A program made the position numbers and the translations under genes. Of a stretch of DNA of 37,566 nucleotides, positions 1,196 through 29,066 are shown piece by piece. Numbering within the stretch: position 1 is the first letter of the stretch; every line of letters begins with the position of its first letter. The stretch comes from Candidatus Rariloculus versatilis (GTDB lineage: Bacteria > Pseudomonadota > Gammaproteobacteria > Steroidobacterales > Rariloculaceae), in assembly GCA_028278665.1 (NCBI GenBank), contig JAQAJI010000016.1, forward strand, positions 1 to 37,566. The letters run 5' to 3'. The notes under the pieces are model-generated. The model was given only the letters and a program-made list of their open reading frames with translations, did no database searches and had not been told where the DNA came from.

Positions 1196-2026
1196 TCAGG
1201 CCCGCAGGCGTATCGCGTTGTCGATGCACCGGCGCCCGCGTTCGATGAATCGCCCGATCCGCCCGCCGGTGTTCTCGGCATCGTCCCAGAGAAACAGGTG
1301 ACCGGCATCCGGCACGATATCCAGTTGTGCGCGCGGAATCCGCCGGGCAAGCCATTCGGGGTTGAAGATCGGGACCAGCGGGTCGTCGTCCCCGCAGATC
1401 ACGAGCGTCTCATGGAAAATCCGGTCCAGAAACGCGAGACTCGACCAGCTCAGGCCCGCGACCAATTGCATGGCGTAGCCGTGGTAGCTCGGCGGATGAG
1501 CACGCCGCGCCAGCATCATCTGGTGGCGGATCCGCGGGTTGCGCGCCGTGCGCCCACCGTAGGCCATGGCCGCGGTGCGGTCGAAGTAGTGCGGCGAGTA
1601 GTATCGAAACGGCGTTGCGAGCACGGTCATCGCCCGGGGCGAACCGAACACCATGCCGACGCCGCAGGTGGTTGCCGCGAGCACGAGCCTCTCGACGCGC
1701 TCTGGAAATTCGAACGCCAACTGTTGCGCGACGCCGCCGCCGTAGGAGTAGCCGATCACATCGGTGCTCGATATGCCGCAATCGTCGAGCACCGCCACCG
1801 TGAGGCGCGCGAGTTCGGCGATCGATATCGGGTAGGCCGGTGTGCTCGAAAGCCCGGTCCCGGGCGCGTCGTAGCGGATCATGCGCCGTTCGGGCAGGTA
1901 GCTCGGGAACGGGCCCCACATGTCCGTGTTGCAGCCGAGGCCTGCGATCAGGAGCAGCGGATCCCCGACACCGGCTTCCGCGATGTGAATCCGATGCCCG
2001 CACCAGTTCATGTAGCGGCTAGCCAT
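1196..2026 (-). CDS. phaZ: intracellular PHA depolymerase-type alpha/beta hydrolase
   Basis: The 276-residue alpha/beta hydrolase resembles the intracellular medium-chain PHA depolymerase PhaZ of pseudomonads, recalled from memory. Diagnostic stretches are the lipase box GYSYGG (nucleophile about Ser94), LVLAATTCGVGMVFGSP, CGDDDPLVP (Asp about 215) and AGHLFLWDD (His about 243). It would hydrolyse stored polyester or its oligomers in the cytoplasm. I chose the ATG at 2026: it has a GGAG about 8 bases upstream, overlaps the phaC stop by 8 bp and begins at the conserved domain. A longer frame reaches 2152 but only adds repeat-encoded Thr-Pro residues that lie antisense to the phaC tail. It is the last gene of the PHA operon. 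Another ester hydrolase role is possible. Confidence 0.82.
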   Translation of the reverse strand: MASRYMNWCGHRIHIAEAGVGDPLLLIAGLGCNTDMWGPFPSYLPERRMIRYDAPGTGLSSTPAYPISIAELARLTVAVLDDCGISSTDVIGYSYGGGVAQQLAFEFPERVERLVLAATTCGVGMVFGSPRAMTVLATPFRYYSPHYFDRTAAMAYGGRTARNPRIRHQMMLARRAHPPSYHGYAMQLVAGLSWSSLAFLDRIFHETLVICGDDDPLVPIFNPEWLARRIPRAQLDIVPDAGHLFLWDDAENTGGRIGRFIERGRRCIDNAIRLRA

Positions 2027-3170
2027 CGGCTCGCTCCGCTGCGGCGTTGCCGCTGCCGTTACCGGTGCCGGTGCCGTTGGTGTTGGCGTTGGCGTTGGCG
2101 TTACCGTCGCCGAGAAAGTCGACGACGCGCGGCCAGAGCCCGGCCGCGGCACGTCCGGCGACGATGCCGACGTGCCCGCCGCGCAAACGGACGATTTCCG
2201 CCTGCGGCACGATGGAGCGAATCGCGTCGACGCCTTCGGGCGGCGATATCGTGTCTCGCGCCGCCGACACCGAGAGCACCGGCATCGACACCTTGCCGAT
2301 ATCGGCCTTGCGGCTCCCGACGGTGGCTTCGCCCTTCATGAGACCGTTGCGGCCGGGGCCGAACTGGCGGTGCATCTCGGCAAGCAATCGACCGGGCGCC
2401 GGCACGACATCGTCGACCCAGGACGCCATCGTGCGCACGTCGCGCAGCCGTTCCGGCGGGTCGTCGAGGCGATCCCAAAGGTCCGACACGCGGCCGATGA
2501 GGCTGTTGGACCCCGGCGCCAGCATCTCGAACCAGCTCTTGACCTCGATGGCCGACACCAGCCGCGGCTGCTCGTAACTCTCGCCCGCAAGCCCCATGCG
2601 ATGGGCGATCCATGCGATTCCGCCCTCGACGTCGCCGTCGACCATCGTGGTCAGAAGCGCAAGCCGGGACACGGTGCCCGGGTTCAGTGCCGAATAAAGC
2701 AGCGCCAGCATCCCGCCCAGGCAATAGCCGACGATGCCGACTTCGGCGGCGCCGCTCGTCCGGCGGATCGCCCGCACCGAGCGGCGAATCAGGCCATCGA
2801 CATAGTAGGCGAGATCGCAGAAGCGATCCTCGCGCGTCGGCACGCCGAAATCGGCGATGTAGACGTCGAAGCCTGCGGCTGCGACGTAGCCCGCAAAGGA
2901 TCGGCCCGGCATCAGGTCCAGAATGAAGTAACGGCTGACCGGAGCAGGGATGAAAAGGACCGGGGGACCGTTGCGTGGCTGGCCGTCGTCATCGAGGAGC
3001 CTGAGCAGCCGCAGCTTGTTCTCCGCGTAGACGACCTGCGCCTGAGTGGCGCCGGCGCCGTAGTGGCCCGGACTCGTCAGGACCTCGTGCAGCCGCTCAA
3101 GCCTGGCGCGGCTGCGCCTTGAGAGCTCGATCAGCGATTCGAGTTCGCGATCGTCGACTGGGAGGGTCAA
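2019..3170 (-). CDS. phaC: poly(3-hydroxyalkanoate) synthase, class III-type PhaC
   Basis: At 383 residues this has class III PhaC length and catalytic layout: lipase-like box GYCLGG with Cys150, Asp306 in ARDTISPP and His333 in GGHVGIVAG. The spacing is almost the same as the Cys149/Asp302/His331 triad of Allochromatium vinosum PhaC. It polymerises (R)-3-hydroxyacyl-CoA into PHA at the granule surface and normally needs a PhaE partner, which fits the gene directly upstream (ATGA overlap). The last about 25 residues are a low-complexity Asn/Ala/Thr/Gly tail encoded by a hexanucleotide repeat and are probably a recent non-catalytic addition. Confidence 0.93.
   Translation of the reverse strand: MTLPVDDRELESLIELSRRSRARLERLHEVLTSPGHYGAGATQAQVVYAENKLRLLRLLDDDGQPRNGPPVLFIPAPVSRYFILDLMPGRSFAGYVAAAGFDVYIADFGVPTREDRFCDLAYYVDGLIRRSVRAIRRTSGAAEVGIVGYCLGGMLALLYSALNPGTVSRLALLTTMVDGDVEGGIAWIAHRMGLAGESYEQPRLVSAIEVKSWFEMLAPGSNSLIGRVSDLWDRLDDPPERLRDVRTMASWVDDVVPAPGRLLAEMHRQFGPGRNGLMKGEATVGSRKADIGKVSMPVLSVSAARDTISPPEGVDAIRSIVPQAEIVRLRGGHVGIVAGRAAAGLWPRVVDFLGDGNANANANTNGTGTGNGSGNAAAERADG
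2046..2105. repeat. 6-bp tandem repeat in the phaC 3' end
   Basis: Ten hexamer units (GTTGGC, GTTGGT, GGTGCC, GTTACC variants) lie inside the last codons of phaC and just upstream of the phaZ start. On the coding strand they encode the Asn-Ala/Asn-Thr/Gly-Thr tail of PhaC. Confidence 0.85.
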
Positions 3171-3586
3171 CGGTCGACCCGCTGCATGCGGTCTGGTCGC
3201 TGCGCTCGGTCTGACGCGTCACCCTCGTCGGAATTGCCGGCAGCCGGATTCGCATCCGTACCGGATTTGCCCTGTTCGGCGCGGATCTCGTCGAGCGTCA
3301 TGCGCAGGTCCGCGACCTGACCCTGAAGTTCGCGTACCGCGAAGAGAACCTGGTCGAGCCGATCGGCGAAATCCGACTCCGGCGCCGAAGCGGCCGGTGG
3401 AACGGGCGTGGGGTACGGCTTGCCGGCGAGCAGCGAACCGCGCATAGCGTTGCCGAGGTGGGTCAGGAACTCTTCGTCCCGGACAATGGAATCCAGATAG
3501 GCGAGCGTGGTCTTCTGCCACTCGCGCTGCTCTTCGAGCCATCGCTCGACGAGCGTGGGTTCCGGGTTGGGCGTTTCGTCGGCCAA
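3167..3586 (-). CDS. short PhaE-like PHA synthase subunit
   Basis: This 139-residue acidic protein overlaps phaC by 4 bp. The N-terminal half is helical and Trp/Gln/Glu rich (WLEEQREWQK), followed by a conserved-looking FLTHLGNAMRGSLLAGKPYP segment. A predicted coiled coil follows (DRLDQVLFAVRELQGQV to DEIRAEQG), then a disordered Asp/Ala tail. Position and shape suggest the accessory subunit required by class III PhaC. It is much shorter than the roughly 350-residue PhaE of A. vinosum, so it may be a minimal PhaE or a PhaM/phasin-type partner. The family call rests on context plus motif resemblance, not a database match. Confidence 0.65.
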   Translation of the reverse strand: MADETPNPEPTLVERWLEEQREWQKTTLAYLDSIVRDEEFLTHLGNAMRGSLLAGKPYPTPVPPAASAPESDFADRLDQVLFAVRELQGQVADLRMTLDEIRAEQGKSGTDANPAAGNSDEGDASDRAQRPDRMQRVDR

Positions 3587-3779: not shown

Positions 3780-4100
3780 TCAGGCCTGAGCCTTGGGCTT
3801 GGCCTTCGCGGTCGTGTTCGAGGCCGTGCTCGAGGTCGACGCCGGTGCGGGCATCGTGAACAGCCGGTCTGCGAACTGCTTCTGTTGCTTGAGCCACTTG
3901 TTGGCAAACGCGAAATTCGCCTCGGTCAACTCCTGCGGCGTCGGCAGGTCCATGGCGAATGCCGGAGCGGGCGTCGACGGAAACTTGCTCATCATTTCGA
4001 CGACCGGCGCCATCGACTTCAGAAAGTTCTCCTGCGTTTCCGCCAGGGCGTCCAGATACTGGTCGCCGGCCGCGGTGGCGAGCTTGGCATATTCAGACAT
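3780..4100 (-). CDS. phaP: phasin (PHA granule-associated protein)
   Basis: The 106-residue protein has phasin features: short and helix-rich, with alternating small and aromatic residues (QYLDALAETQENFLKSMAP, NFAFANKWLKQQKQFADRLF) and an Ala/Thr/Lys-rich tail ending KAKPKAQA. Phasins coat PHA granules and control their number and size. I chose the ATG at 4100 because TGAGGAGA sits 6-10 bases upstream. It is the first gene of the PHA operon, and the neighbouring synthase supports the call. Confidence 0.85.
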   Translation of the reverse strand: MSEYAKLATAAGDQYLDALAETQENFLKSMAPVVEMMSKFPSTPAPAFAMDLPTPQELTEANFAFANKWLKQQKQFADRLFTMPAPASTSSTASNTTAKAKPKAQA

Positions 4101-4151
4101 CTTCGTTCTCCTCAAATAAAAACAAGCGAAGTGCGCGAGAAATTGAAAGCG

Positions 4152-4169
4152 TGCGTAGTTTGCTACGCA
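4152..4169. promoter_or_regulatory. inverted repeat upstream of the phasin gene
   Basis: TGCGTAG, a 4-base TTTG spacer and CTACGCA form a perfect 7-bp inverted repeat about 50 bp upstream of the phasin start. The position suits an operator for a PHA-responsive repressor such as PhaR, but no PhaR gene is in the window and the assignment is inference. Confidence 0.4.
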
Positions 4170-4251
4170 TTCGCTCTGCAAGTCAAGCGCCCGAGGAAAT
4201 CTCTTTTCGGGGAGGGCCAGACGGCTGTCCGGCCTGACGGCGAGGCACCCT

Positions 4252-4391
4252 GCCCTGCGTGCGGCGGAGCACCCACCTTGCGCTCGACCCGAATTGCCGT
4301 CGCGGCGCTCCTGCCCTGCGTGCGGCGAAGTCCCCGCGCCGCCCGCTCGGCCTCAGCCGTATCAGCCGCCCCGGCCCTACGCGCGGCGGAG
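4252..4391. repeat. 18-bp direct repeat, three copies exactly 61 bp apart
   Basis: GCCCTGCGTGCGGCGGAG at 4252 recurs with one mismatch at 4313 and with two mismatches at 4374. The last copy covers the stop codon of the acyl-CoA synthetase fusion gene. The gap 4101-4376 otherwise holds only the phasin upstream region. Confidence 0.75.
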
Positions 4392-7127
4392 CGCCGACGC
4401 GCCGGTTCCCGCAAGCTCCTTCGGTTCTTCGCCGGCGTCGCCTTCGGACTCGGCGAGAAACGCCGCAAGCGCCGTGCGAACCCGGTTTACGTGTTCGGTG
4501 ATGGCCGCGCTCATGTTGTGCGTCTCGCCGCTGCGCAGCGCCAGGATCAGCCCCTTGTGGTCATCGAAGACTTCGCGGATCGAAGCCGGCGCGACCTCGA
4601 GCACGCGGCGCATGAGCTCCGGCAGGTCGATGGAGTTGTAGATCTCAAAGAGGCAGGGATTGCGCAACAGACTCAGGAAGACGCGATGGAACGCGTCGTC
4701 GGCGCGGATGTAGCGGGCGACATGCGCAGGGCTCGCGCCGCGAACCAGCGGCGTGAAGGCCCGCAGCCTGGCGCCAAGCGCATCGCGCTCGGCTTCGGCC
4801 ATGAGCGCCTTGCCGAGCGACTCCGTGATGCCGATCTCCAGTGCCGCACGCGCATCGAGGCCCTGCACCAGCGCGTCCACGTCGCCTGCCAGGCTGTCCT
4901 GTTCCCTGGCGAGTCCGATGGACAGATCCTCGATGATGCCGCCCGGGCGCAGTTCGTCGACGACCGAGGTATCGCCGACATCGTAGCGAAGCGCCTTGCG
5001 CACCCACGATGCCGATGTCTTGCCCCAGGACAGTATCGCCTGGATCGCCCCTTCGGCGTTGGCGGCAGCGATCGAGTCGGTCAGATATTCGTGGAAATAG
5101 ATGACGTTTTCGGCGGCAACCGACTCGTCCTTGAGCGCCGTGCGGAAAAGCTGCCGAAGCTTGAGCGTCTCGAAACCGGCGTTGAGATGCTCGTTCTCGG
5201 CGATCGCAATGACGGCGGCATGGTAGGCCTTGTTGGCGTCGAGAAACGCCTCCCTGTCGAGGAACGCCCCATCCTCGCCGAGCAGCGCGACCATCGAATG
5301 CAGTCTTTCGTAGAGCGCTTCGGTCGTCGTAAGAGGCACGGGTCCGCGGCTCAGCCGCAACCACGTCGCCCCGGCTTCAACCACCGCACGCGCCTCGACG
5401 GCGGCGCGCAACTGCGGATACGAGACTGTCGCAAACTCCGACTCCGCGGCCTCCATCGGCAATGCCGCACCGATGGCTGTCGGCTGCAGCAGCCGGCGCA
5501 TGATCTTGCCGCTCGTCGTCTTCGGCAGTTCTTCGAGAATCTCGACGAAGCGTGGATATTTGTAGGCTGCAAGGCGCTCGCGTGCGAACGCCCGAATCTC
5601 GTCGGTCGTGACCTCGCGTCCGGGCTTCAGACTGATCACGGCCTTGATCGTTTCGCCGCGATACGGGTCCGGAATGCCGACGACGGCCGCCTCGCGCACG
5701 TCGGCATGTTCGTACAGCACCTCCTCGACCTCGCGCGGCCAGACCTTGAAGCCCGATGCGACGATCATGTCCTTGGAACGGTCGACGAGATAGAACCAGC
5801 CGTTTTCGTCCATGAAGCCGACATCGCCCGTGCGCAGGCCGTCGGGACCGATGGAGCGCGCCGTTTCCCCGGGCTTCTGCCAGTAGCCGGGCACGATCTG
5901 CGGCCCGTCGATGACGAACTCGCCGACTTCGCCGGGCTCGGCCTGGAAACCGGCGTCGGTAATCACCTTGACCTTCGTGTCGAACACCGGCACGCCGATC
6001 GACAGGGCGCCCGTGTGCGGATCGACGGGAGGCTCGACACCGTGCGGCGTCATGTGCGTGGGCGAGGTCGCCTCGGTCAGGCCGTACATCGGCTGGATCC
6101 TGACGCCGGTGCGTTCGTGCCACTCGGCAAGCACGCTCGGCGGCGTCGGCGCACCGCCCGTATAGAGTTTCGTCAGCGAGGAAACGTCGTACTTGTCCAG
6201 TACCCCGCTGTTGATCAGTGCGATGAACGCGGTAATCGCCGAAACGCTGAAGGTCGCACCATGGCTCTGCACCAGGCGCATGGCCTCGTCGGCATCGAAG
6301 CGGTAGAAGAGAATGAGCGGCGCGCCGGTCAGCATAGCGAGCGTCACATGGCCGATCAGGCCCGTCACATGAAACAGCGGCGCGAGACCGAGGATCCGGT
6401 CTTCGGCGGACAGGCCGATCCAGCGCTCGTACACCGTCGTCGCAAACACGACGTTACGGTGCAGGTTCATCGCGCCCTTGGGATCGCCCGTGGTCCCGGA
6501 CGTGTAGACCATGAACGCGACGTCGTCGCCCGTGATCGGCACAGCTTCCGGCGTTTCGCCACGGTAGTTCTCAATGAGTTCGAGCATGTCGGGCACGCTC
6601 GCATTGCGCAGCCGCGAAATTCCGGCCAGCACTTTCGGCAAGGGGCGGTCTTCGGGCAGAAAATCAAGCGCTGAAGTCGTCACCGCAAATTCGACCGCGG
6701 TCTGCGGCAACGCCGCCTGAGCGACATCGGCGTAGAGGTCCTCCTGACAGATCAGCGCGCGGCTGCCGGATCCGGCGAGCACCTTTGCAAGTTCCGCTTC
6801 GCGCAGCATCGGGTTGCACGGCACGATGACGGCGCCGCACTTCCACGCGGCAAGAACCGCGACCAGCACCTGCGGTACGTTTTGCAGGTACATCGCGACG
6901 CGGTCCCCGTGCTCGACCCGACCTGCCTGCAGCGCCACGGCCAGCGCATCGGACATCGCGTCGATCTCGGCGGCGGAAATCGGCCGATCGAAGTAGCAGG
7001 CGATCGGCGCGCCGGGGTCGCGCGCGACGGTCGCACGAAACATCGCGAGCGCCGTACGGCTTGCCGGTTCGATCGTTGCAGGCACGGATCCGTAGAGTCC
7101 GAGCCAGGGTTGCACAGGCTTGTCCAT
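4377..7127 (-). CDS. acyl-CoA synthetase fused to two FCD-like ligand-binding domains
   Basis: Residues 1-555 are a complete ANL-superfamily acid:CoA ligase: VYTSGTTGDPKG (208-218), YGLTEAT (348-354), LRTGDVGF (431-438), DRSKDMIVASGFKVWP (449-464) and the C-terminal PKTTSGKIMRR with catalytic Lys541. It should activate a carboxylic acid to its acyl-CoA; the substrate is unknown. Residues about 570-710 and 755-890 each look like the helical FCD domain of GntR-family regulators. The second keeps a metal-type set Asp810-x3-His814, His857, His879. The first has Asn632-x3-His636 and His679 but Trp/Gly where the last His is expected. There is no winged helix, so this is not a DNA-binding regulator. 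The 916 residues exceed the family's usual 500-560. A linked acid sensor or allosteric module is one inference. Confidence 0.88.
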   Translation of the reverse strand: MDKPVQPWLGLYGSVPATIEPASRTALAMFRATVARDPGAPIACYFDRPISAAEIDAMSDALAVALQAGRVEHGDRVAMYLQNVPQVLVAVLAAWKCGAVIVPCNPMLREAELAKVLAGSGSRALICQEDLYADVAQAALPQTAVEFAVTTSALDFLPEDRPLPKVLAGISRLRNASVPDMLELIENYRGETPEAVPITGDDVAFMVYTSGTTGDPKGAMNLHRNVVFATTVYERWIGLSAEDRILGLAPLFHVTGLIGHVTLAMLTGAPLILFYRFDADEAMRLVQSHGATFSVSAITAFIALINSGVLDKYDVSSLTKLYTGGAPTPPSVLAEWHERTGVRIQPMYGLTEATSPTHMTPHGVEPPVDPHTGALSIGVPVFDTKVKVITDAGFQAEPGEVGEFVIDGPQIVPGYWQKPGETARSIGPDGLRTGDVGFMDENGWFYLVDRSKDMIVASGFKVWPREVEEVLYEHADVREAAVVGIPDPYRGETIKAVISLKPGREVTTDEIRAFARERLAAYKYPRFVEILEELPKTTSGKIMRRLLQPTAIGAALPMEAAESEFATVSYPQLRAAVEARAVVEAGATWLRLSRGPVPLTTTEALYERLHSMVALLGEDGAFLDREAFLDANKAYHAAVIAIAENEHLNAGFETLKLRQLFRTALKDESVAAENVIYFHEYLTDSIAAANAEGAIQAILSWGKTSASWVRKALRYDVGDTSVVDELRPGGIIEDLSIGLAREQDSLAGDVDALVQGLDARAALEIGITESLGKALMAEAERDALGARLRAFTPLVRGASPAHVARYIRADDAFHRVFLSLLRNPCLFEIYNSIDLPELMRRVLEVAPASIREVFDDHKGLILALRSGETHNMSAAITEHVNRVRTALAAFLAESEGDAGEEPKELAGTGASALRRA

Positions 7128-7358
7128 CGGCGTCTACTCGCTTCGGTTCAGGAAGTCTTGCGGTGTCGCCGGAAGTGAGCGAGCGAAGTGCCGCTGCGGT
7201 TGGCGATGGAAACTACGCTTCGTACTGCAGAGCCGCATGGCCTTGCCCGATCCTGAATGGCCGGGCTGTCGTGCCGCCGTCAGCGCGGGCGCGATCATGG
7301 CGCAGCGGCAACCGCGCTGTCAACGCGATTTCGTATCGATCACGAAAACTTCACGAAA

Positions 7359-7712
7359 CTACAGGTCCTCGCCGACCAGGGAGCGATAGACCCTGATCAG
7401 CGTGTCCTTCTGCTCCGGAGCGAGCCGCTCGTCGAGCCGGATCGCCTGTTCGACGGAGACCGCTTCGCCCGAATCGTCCCCATCGAAGAAGCCGAGCATC
7501 GTGTAGAGCTGCTCCGGCTTCATGCCGAATGCCTGTGCGAGCGCCTTGACGACCTGGGCCGACGGACGGTAGTGGCCGCGCTCGAGCTGACTCAGGTAGG
7601 AATCCGAAACGCCGGCCACTTTCGCCAAGTGGCGCTGGGAGACCTGGGCGAGCTTGCGCTGCGCGCGAACGAAGTCGCCGAAAGCAACGAGCATGGCGTC
7701 GTTGTCCTGCAT
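7359..7712 (-). CDS. XRE-family HTH transcriptional regulator
   Basis: This 117-residue protein has a Cro/CI-type helix-turn-helix at about residues 12-68 (QRHLAKVAGVSDSYLSQLE, then RPSAQVVKALAQAFGMKPE). A short acidic helical C-terminus, probably for dimerisation, follows. Targets are unknown. It lies between the acyl-CoA synthetase fusion gene and an exported protein gene on the same strand, about 230 bp upstream of the synthetase start, so control of that gene is plausible. The ATG at 7712 has no clear ribosome-binding site; an internal ATG at 7694 is the alternative. Confidence 0.88.
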   Translation of the reverse strand: MQDNDAMLVAFGDFVRAQRKLAQVSQRHLAKVAGVSDSYLSQLERGHYRPSAQVVKALAQAFGMKPEQLYTMLGFFDGDDSGEAVSVEQAIRLDERLAPEQKDTLIRVYRSLVGEDL

Positions 7713-13294: not shown

Positions 13295-14083
13295 ATGAGA
13301 AATCGATTCCGTCTCCCGGCTGTTCTGACCGCATTGTCGACGGTTCCCGGCCTTGCGTTCGCGCAGAGCACGTTCACCCATGTGCACATGCGCGTGCCGG
13401 ATGTCGAAGCCGCGGCCGACTGGTACGGAGAACTCATCGGCGGCGAAGTGAGACCGGGCGGACCCGGGTTTTTCGTCGTGCAATCGAACGGATTCATCGG
13501 CACGATGCCGAACGAGGGCAACGCCGGGGCGAGCAACGAAACCGCGATCGACCACGTCGGCTTCGGCGTCGACTACCTGGACGCGGCGGTCGAACGGGCC
13601 AGACAGCTCGGCGCCCGCATCGACGAGGAACCGCGACCCGGCATCACGGCCCCGCTGATCGCTTTCATCGAGGATCCCTGGGGCGCGCGAATCGAACTCA
13701 TGCAGGATGCCGAACAACCCCGGATCAACCACGTGCATCTCTACGTCGCCGACAAGGACGGTGTACGCGACTGGTTCCTGGACATTTTCGGCGGCGAATT
13801 CGTGCCCGAGCGGGGCGGCGACAACTTCCACTGCATCGTCTACGGGAATCTGTGGGTGCAGATCAGCGAAGTTGCACAGGGAGAGCGGGCGCCGAGCCGC
13901 GGCCGCTCGCTCGATCACATCGGTTTCCGGGTCTCCGAATCGCTGACCGACTTCGCGACGCGCATCGAGGCGACCGGCTACCCGCCCTACCTGATCCGGC
14001 CGAACCCGCCGGGCTCGGACCTGCTCTTCTTCGAGGGGCCGGGCGGCGTGCACTTCGAGATCGTGGAGGCGACGACTCAATAG
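13295..14083 (+). CDS. exported tandem VOC (glyoxalase/extradiol dioxygenase-fold) protein
   Basis: The 262-residue protein starts with a signal peptide (RLPAVLTALSTVPGLAFAQ), then has two vicinal-oxygen-chelate domains. Domain 1 spans about residues 26-145 (THVHMRVPDVEAAADWYGEL, DHVGFGV, GARIELM); domain 2 about 150-260 (NHVHLYVADKDGVRDWF, LDHIGFRV, GVHFEIVEA). His and Glu residues at canonical metal-ligand positions are kept in both halves, so a metal-dependent lyase, isomerase or dioxygenase activity is possible. The start is fixed by AGGAGG six bases upstream of the ATG. Its 3' end overlaps the convergent PIN toxin gene by 7 bp. Confidence 0.85.
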   Translation: MRNRFRLPAVLTALSTVPGLAFAQSTFTHVHMRVPDVEAAADWYGELIGGEVRPGGPGFFVVQSNGFIGTMPNEGNAGASNETAIDHVGFGVDYLDAAVERARQLGARIDEEPRPGITAPLIAFIEDPWGARIELMQDAEQPRINHVHLYVADKDGVRDWFLDIFGGEFVPERGGDNFHCIVYGNLWVQISEVAQGERAPSRGRSLDHIGFRVSESLTDFATRIEATGYPPYLIRPNPPGSDLLFFEGPGGVHFEIVEATTQ

Positions 14084-14487
14084 CGGCGCAAGCCCGAGTC
14101 CAGAAACACCCGGGGCGTAACCACGCGAACGCCCTGGCGGCGGTCGTGGGGAAAGTGCTTCAAGTTGCCGGTCACGAGGAATTCGGCCATCGCCGCTGCG
14201 GCAACTTCCAGGAACGGCTCATCGTCCGGGTCGGGCAACCGGAGGGGCAGCGGCTTGGCGGAAACCAGTTCTCCGCCGGCGCGAATCTGCGCCATGAGCG
14301 CCATGACCTCTTCTTCGGCGAACGGGAAAGCCGGACGCCGCAATACCGCGTTGTATTCGGCGAGTATTCTGGAGTCATGGCAGGAACGTAAGCTGCCTGC
14401 AGTTATCAGACCGACGATGATACCCGGCGGACCGAACGGTGAGAGCAGGCCGAAGATAAGTACATTGGTGTCGATCACGACCCTCAT
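14077..14487 (-). CDS. PIN-domain toxin of a type II toxin-antitoxin pair
   Basis: This 136-residue PIN-domain ribonuclease has VIDTNVLIFG with the first catalytic Asp, the mid-domain acidic ILAEYNAVL, and PDPDDEPFLEVA. It ends with VTGNLKHFP, the Asn-containing form common in this PIN subgroup. Such toxins cleave RNA when the antitoxin is lost. It follows its antitoxin gene with a 4-bp overlap, the normal layout. Confidence 0.9.
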   Translation of the reverse strand: MRVVIDTNVLIFGLLSPFGPPGIIVGLITAGSLRSCHDSRILAEYNAVLRRPAFPFAEEEVMALMAQIRAGGELVSAKPLPLRLPDPDDEPFLEVAAAAMAEFLVTGNLKHFPHDRRQGVRVVTPRVFLDSGLRRY

Positions 14488-14771
14488 TTGCGCCGCTGAT
14501 GCCGCGCGGCCTGGATTTCCGAATTGACGTCTTCAAGAGTCAAGCGGTCGGCGCCGCTCTCCCGGGCGCGTTCCTGCATCGCCGCGACCGCCAGTTGCGC
14601 GCGGGCCTGCCGCAGAGCCGTCAACGACGCTTCCAGCGTCGGCGCGGTGGTCGCCGACAGCACGGCGATCGGCTTGCCGTTCGAGGTCACGACCAGGTCC
14701 TTTTCCTCGCGCAGGGCATCCCAGACGGCAGCGGAGCGGGTACGCAATTCGCGAACGCTTACAAAGTCCAT
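14484..14771 (-). CDS. Phd/YefM-type antitoxin
   Basis: The 95-residue protein has the Phd/YefM pattern: VSVRELRTRSAAVWDALREE, then LVVTSNGKPIAVLSA, and a charged helical C-terminus that would wrap the toxin. It should bind its own promoter and neutralise the PIN toxin encoded 4 bp overlapping downstream. Its -1 region carries palindromic sequence suitable as an operator. Confidence 0.9.
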   Translation of the reverse strand: MDFVSVRELRTRSAAVWDALREEKDLVVTSNGKPIAVLSATTAPTLEASLTALRQARAQLAVAAMQERARESGADRLTLEDVNSEIQAARHQRRK

Positions 14772-18091: not shown

Positions 18092-18152
18092 CTTGTACTG
18101 ATTCGCGGGAACGCGCGACCATAGGCGTTTTCCGGATGAAAAAGCGTTGCAC

Positions 18153-29066
<10,914 letters not shown>

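Follow-up and report, generated by a model that had tools for sequence, protein, structure and literature searches.

The FCD domain is known as a sensor of transcription factors of the GntR/FadR type, in which a winged helix stands at the N-terminus, and the FCD domains of DgoR, CitO and TM0439 bind a metal together with a carboxylate (PMC7674646, PMC4746285). Sensor domains for small molecules can also be carried by enzymes, as with the ACT-type amino-acid sensors that are fused to enzymes for allosteric control, e.g. in the ACT-GNAT acetyltransferases (PMC6434083). Here we describe a gene in a 37,566-nucleotide stretch of DNA from Candidatus Rariloculus versatilis (contig JAQAJI010000016.1, positions 1 to 37,566; hereafter the window), which encodes a complete acyl-CoA ligase of the AMP-forming type with two FCD domains behind it and lies beside genes for polyhydroxyalkanoate (PHA) storage.

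The protein shares with the FCD regulators DgoR, LldR, NanR, TM0439 and CitO the FCD profile and the same Arg and Asp/Asn-His-His(-His) positions, but differs from them in lacking a winged helix, in carrying its FCD domains in tandem and in having an enzyme attached. It resembles the ACT-enzyme fusions in placing a small-molecule sensor domain on an enzyme, although the sensor is of another fold and one known from transcription factors. Unfused PRK08314-like ligases of Cupriavidus metallidurans, Tsukamurella and Rhodococcus consist of the same two ligase domains but end after AMP-binding_C, and several are encoded beside PF04199-like cyclase genes rather than in a PHA operon. Class III-type PHA synthase loci (phaC, phaE, phasin) are comparable to the neighbourhood, which holds a PhaC-like protein with Cys, Asp and His residues together with small-subunit-like and phasin-like neighbours; here, however, PhaC scores under the TIGR01836 cut-off and the locus includes a ligase with an FCD module. 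No paper in the literature library searched mentions an FCD domain together with a CoA ligase. The fusion is narrowly distributed but unusual: if the reading developed below is true, an enzyme fusion free of DNA binding would show FCD to be capable of acting as a stand-alone allosteric unit, and would offer a natural means of making CoA-ligase flux into bioplastic precursors answer to a chosen acid.

Architecture and conservation of the fusion protein

The gene and its domains are as follows.

4377..7127, minus strand: whole fusion gene, acyl-CoA ligase plus FCD1 plus FCD2; 916 aa, ATG start
5880..7040, minus strand: AMP-binding (adenylation) domain, residues 30-416; Pfam PF00501, 269 bits; motifs YTSGTTGDPKG and MYGLTEATSP
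5505..5732, minus strand: AMP-binding_C, residues 466-541; Pfam PF13193, 83 bits; ends at the catalytic Lys K541 of PKTTSGKIMRR
5019..5429, minus strand: FCD1, residues ~567-703; PF07729 at 5034-5396, 27.6 bits; R580, N632, H636, H679, W701
4902..5018, minus strand: variable linker between FCD1 and FCD2, residues 704-742; from the alignment, 26% invariant
4458..4901, minus strand: FCD2, residues ~743-890; PF07729 at 4485-4859, 44.7 bits; R760, D810, H814, H857, H879

An earlier note on this DNA had read the open reading frame as a CoA ligase joined to two FCD domains without a DNA-binding domain, and had proposed comparing the C-terminal region with the FCD profile; both the reading and the comparison hold up. 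In a search of the genome each of the two copies by itself exceeds the curated Pfam cut-off for FCD (PF07729, 24.3 bits), and at the protein level the FCD match falls into two stretches that together reach 58 bits. The ligase carries the hallmarks of the ANL superfamily in sequence and Pfam matches alike: AMP-binding and AMP-binding_C domains, a P-loop, YGLTE and the catalytic Lys. No GntR or other helix-turn-helix (HTH) family matched the 916-aa protein at E<=1 in the Pfam search, and the segments outside the domains (~550-566 and 704-742) are too short to hold a winged helix; where GntR/FadR regulators have their N-terminal winged helix, the ligase precedes the FCD pair instead.

The intact fusion, read in one frame, occurs in five genomes belonging to three genera, namely that of the window and the relatives G001, G002, G003 and G009, which show 69-88% identity to the window's protein over the C-terminal region; the same architecture recurs at loci L019, L020, L021 and L023. 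Public records matching it are the metagenome-assembled genomes JAJEGN01, JAJDVG01 and PMCP01. When the C-terminal alignment was searched against samples from the class (369 genomes), the order (296) and the phylum (398), sets that overlap, the fusion was not found outside the five genomes in these approximately 1,000 genomes, which gave one weak FCD match (29 bits, G1019), and plasmid records yielded no relative of the C-terminal region. Since sampled genomes elsewhere are without it, the fusion looks confined to one family of uncultured Gammaproteobacteria. Other enzyme-FCD fusions were sought among the FCD matches listed in long frames (468-864 aa) within the order; six candidates were rejected, as by eye a GntR-type HTH-like segment stands just before each FCD, which suggests ordinary GntR-FCD regulators preceded by a non-coding stretch of frame.

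A second ligase-FCD-FCD copy in G003 (L022:1463-3745, G003:C25) lies outside the PHA cluster and has no adjacent XRE gene. It is divergently oriented to a peptidase-like gene. An apparent deletion of FCD1 in this copy was rejected, there being a run of N (a scaffold gap) at that place.

Invariant positions across the five genomes make up 73% of FCD2, 66% of the ligase, 53% of FCD1 and 26% of the linker. FCD2 has the lowest nonsynonymous rate (dN) of all regions, and its ratio to the synonymous rate (dN/dS) is 0.05-0.15, against about 0.08-0.24 in FCD1, with several dS values saturated. FCD2 is thus under strong purifying selection, at least as constrained as the enzyme, and evolves more slowly than any other part of the protein.

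The nearest unfused relatives, 49-51% identical over the ligase, come from Cupriavidus metallidurans, Tsukamurella, Rhodococcus and two more genomes of the class, and in these both the match and the open frame stop just after AMP-binding_C. The best NCBIfam subfamily of the ligase is PRK08314, at 447 bits against a cut-off of 705. Cyclase-family genes adjoin several of the unfused relatives (Rhodococcus, Tsukamurella, Cupriavidus), and the window itself encodes, at 104-1153, a cyclase-family protein (PF04199) whose start resembles a signal peptide. This cyclase was dropped as a part of the system, cyclase-like genes being present in L019 and L020 but not in L021.

Metal and carboxylate residues of the two FCD domains

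In the alignment FCD2 presents the full Asp-His-His-His set claimed for it earlier (D810, H814, H857, H879), together with the helix-1 Arg R760. FCD1 has N632 at the Asp position, H636 and H679, and W701 where the last His would be; its helix-1 Arg is R580. Both R580 and R760 align with R102, which belongs to the ligand pocket of DgoR. The two domains are approximately 18% identical to each other and each is 12-23% identical to the other FCD domains compared. For FCD2 alone the range is 16-23%, and despite this R760, D810, H814, H857 and H879 are invariant across the family. The closest solved structure is 7c7e for FCD1, whose matched sequence in the alignment is Escherichia coli DgoR, and NanR (6on4) for FCD2.

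Each of the changes in FCD1 has precedent. The metal ligands of DgoR are D146, H150 and H195, and Asn occupies the Asp position in Ps5454 and CitO (PMC7674646, PMC4746285); in our alignment DgoR is without a His at the last metal position. Both domains thus carry the residue pattern of FCD (Arg, Asp/Asn, His, His, (His)). Since DgoR binds metal although it has no last His, and Ps5454 and CitO carry the same Asn, the substitutions in FCD1 need not signify a dead site and by this analogy are not evidence of one in themselves; no tested example uniting both changes (Asn for Asp and loss of the last His) was found. The description of FCD1 in the earlier note, Asn for Asp and no last His, is therefore accurate, but the contrast it drew with FCD2 is too simple, since DgoR, Ps5454 and CitO share these changes. 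What the note said of the domains, of the missing DNA-binding part and of the PHA context described below stands.

AlphaFold2 models built on 5- and 6-row family alignments reached predicted local distance difference test (pLDDT) scores of 48 and 36, too poor to use because the family alignment is too shallow; the C-terminal region was all helical in them, and a Foldseek search with the first (pLDDT 48) gave no match at E<=0.001, a result to which we attach no weight.

PHA neighbourhood and candidate control region

Phasin-like, PhaE-like and class-III-like PhaC genes directly follow the ligase gene, in agreement with the place beside a PHA operon proposed for it at the outset.

3780..4100, minus strand: phasin-like small protein (ORF 3780-4181, Met at 4100), kept in L019, L020, L021 and L023; named by position and appearance
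3167..3586, minus strand: PhaE-like small subunit, named by position and conservation; 4-nt overlap with phaC
2019..3170, minus strand: PhaC-like PHA synthase; TIGR01836, 171 bits; C150, D306, H333
7294..7323, minus strand: sigma-70-like promoter of the ligase gene, TTGACA-18-CATGAT, kept in L019 and L020; chance alone would give 0.8 such sites in the stretch
7329..7347, no strand: palindrome resembling an operator, TTTCGT-N7-ACGAAA, with 5 bp between it and the -35 element downstream; L020 has it without a mismatch and L019 with one
7359..7712, minus strand: XRE (Cro/C1 HTH) regulator, 117 aa; Pfam HTH_3; kept directly upstream of the ligase gene

The gene order XRE, ligase-FCD-FCD, phasin-like, PhaE-like, PhaC-like is kept in the window, L019, L020, L021 and L023, and the fusion ligase and the PhaC-like gene occur in the identical 5 of 97 relatives' genomes. 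The PhaC-like protein has the Cys-Asp-His triad, yet its score against the class III model TIGR01836 lies below the cut-off of 365 bits; the phasin-like protein matches no Pfam family and the PhaE-like protein no Pfam or NCBIfam entry. By eye, G009 has an extra small phasin-like frame (L023:4855-5137) that separates its XRE gene from the ligase gene.

The XRE protein has no sensor domain and lies directly upstream of the ligase at the PHA-linked loci. The palindrome has its sole perfect copy in the 2.9 Mb genome here, and is seen in only three genomes (the window, L019 and L020), all of one genus. The XRE protein is 42% identical to one of Nocardia farcinica (L061:2950-4020), whose gene directly precedes a frame for a Lys/Ala-tailed HBHA/MLDS-like protein. 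In Rhodococcus jostii MLDS is under the control of the regulator MLDSR, which lipid droplets sequester (PMC5504291). The present locus is like that system in having a small XRE gene beside granule-protein genes, a likeness drawn via the Nocardia XRE and not MLDSR itself, and unlike it in that the palindrome differs from the published MLDSR box. By this analogy, the XRE beside the PHA locus may be a storage-granule-sensing regulator common to different phyla.

Elsewhere in the window, a PIN-domain-like and a Phd-like antitoxin ORF in tandem (14077-14771) probably form a toxin-antitoxin pair, and the start of a 3639-aa ORF (18147-29066) resembles a modular polyketide synthase, both by eye.

Possible roles of the FCD pair

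From its sequence, we hold it an even call that the protein is a ligase tuned by a carboxylate through a tandem FCD module from GntR-type repressors and feeding PHA storage. The gene product would be a fatty- or hydroxy-acid:CoA ligase with a C-terminal FCD module taken from such repressors, in which FCD2, and perhaps FCD1, would bind a divalent metal and a small carboxylate; this binding would alter ligase activity, and the adjacent PHA synthase would receive acyl- or 3-hydroxyacyl-CoA from the ligase. The sensing step, normally transcriptional, would act directly on the enzyme, transcription being left to the adjacent XRE regulator at the palindromic site. Regulation by a carboxylate is the best-supported function because FCD2 retains its full set of metal and carboxylate residues and evolves under tighter constraint than the ligase. 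A bolder form of the proposal, which we find rather unlikely, is that a repressor's sensor module has moved from gene to enzyme control: the FCD pair, with its metal and carboxylate, would gate the ligase allosterically, the droplet-type XRE would keep transcription via its unique operator, and the locus would sense both free acid and granule state. Several points weigh against tuning by a carboxylate. With sequences that are 70-89% identical, the invariance of single residues is weak evidence alone, and the high conservation of FCD2 is also compatible with an interaction or scaffold role; the low-pLDDT models could not show FCD packing on the ligase; and the ligase reaches the cut-off of none of the NCBIfam subfamilies listed, so that none of them points to its substrate.

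The main rival to allosteric control is a scaffold, in which the FCD pair, its pockets inherited and its sensing lost, would serve in dimerisation or in docking to the granule or a partner, fixing the oligomeric state or tethering the ligase to PhaC, phasin or granule. FCD domains dimerise in many GntR regulators, FCD1 is short of one metal ligand and the fusion is strictly linked to the PHA cluster, all in keeping with such a role; but a pure scaffold needs none of the metal and carboxylate residues, which persist in full in FCD2 at its low identity to other FCD domains, and the L022 copy stands outside the PHA cluster. On balance we consider a scaffold rather unlikely. PHA depolymerisation releases 3-hydroxy acids, and FCD ligands and ligase substrates are both carboxylates, so the FCD pocket could instead bind either the acid that the ligase itself activates or one released when PHA is degraded, and so concentrate it locally, as the earlier note suggested as its second idea; no channel is apparent in the sequence, however, and such capture seems improbable. 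A sensor-less XRE directly upstream at PHA-linked loci and a genome-unique palindrome beside the ligase promoter would also fit a two-protein regulator, with DNA binding by XRE, sensing by the ligase-FCD protein and the ligase as co-regulator at 7329-7347; yet the L022 copy lacks a neighbouring XRE and the palindrome is limited to one genus, which leaves this a long shot. Finally, as the assembly consists of 122 contigs, of which the window is one, two genes might have been joined by chance through a frameshift or assembly error; the probability of this is negligible, since the relatives refute it, the one open frame being shared by five genomes from three genera, and dN/dS is low in both FCD domains.
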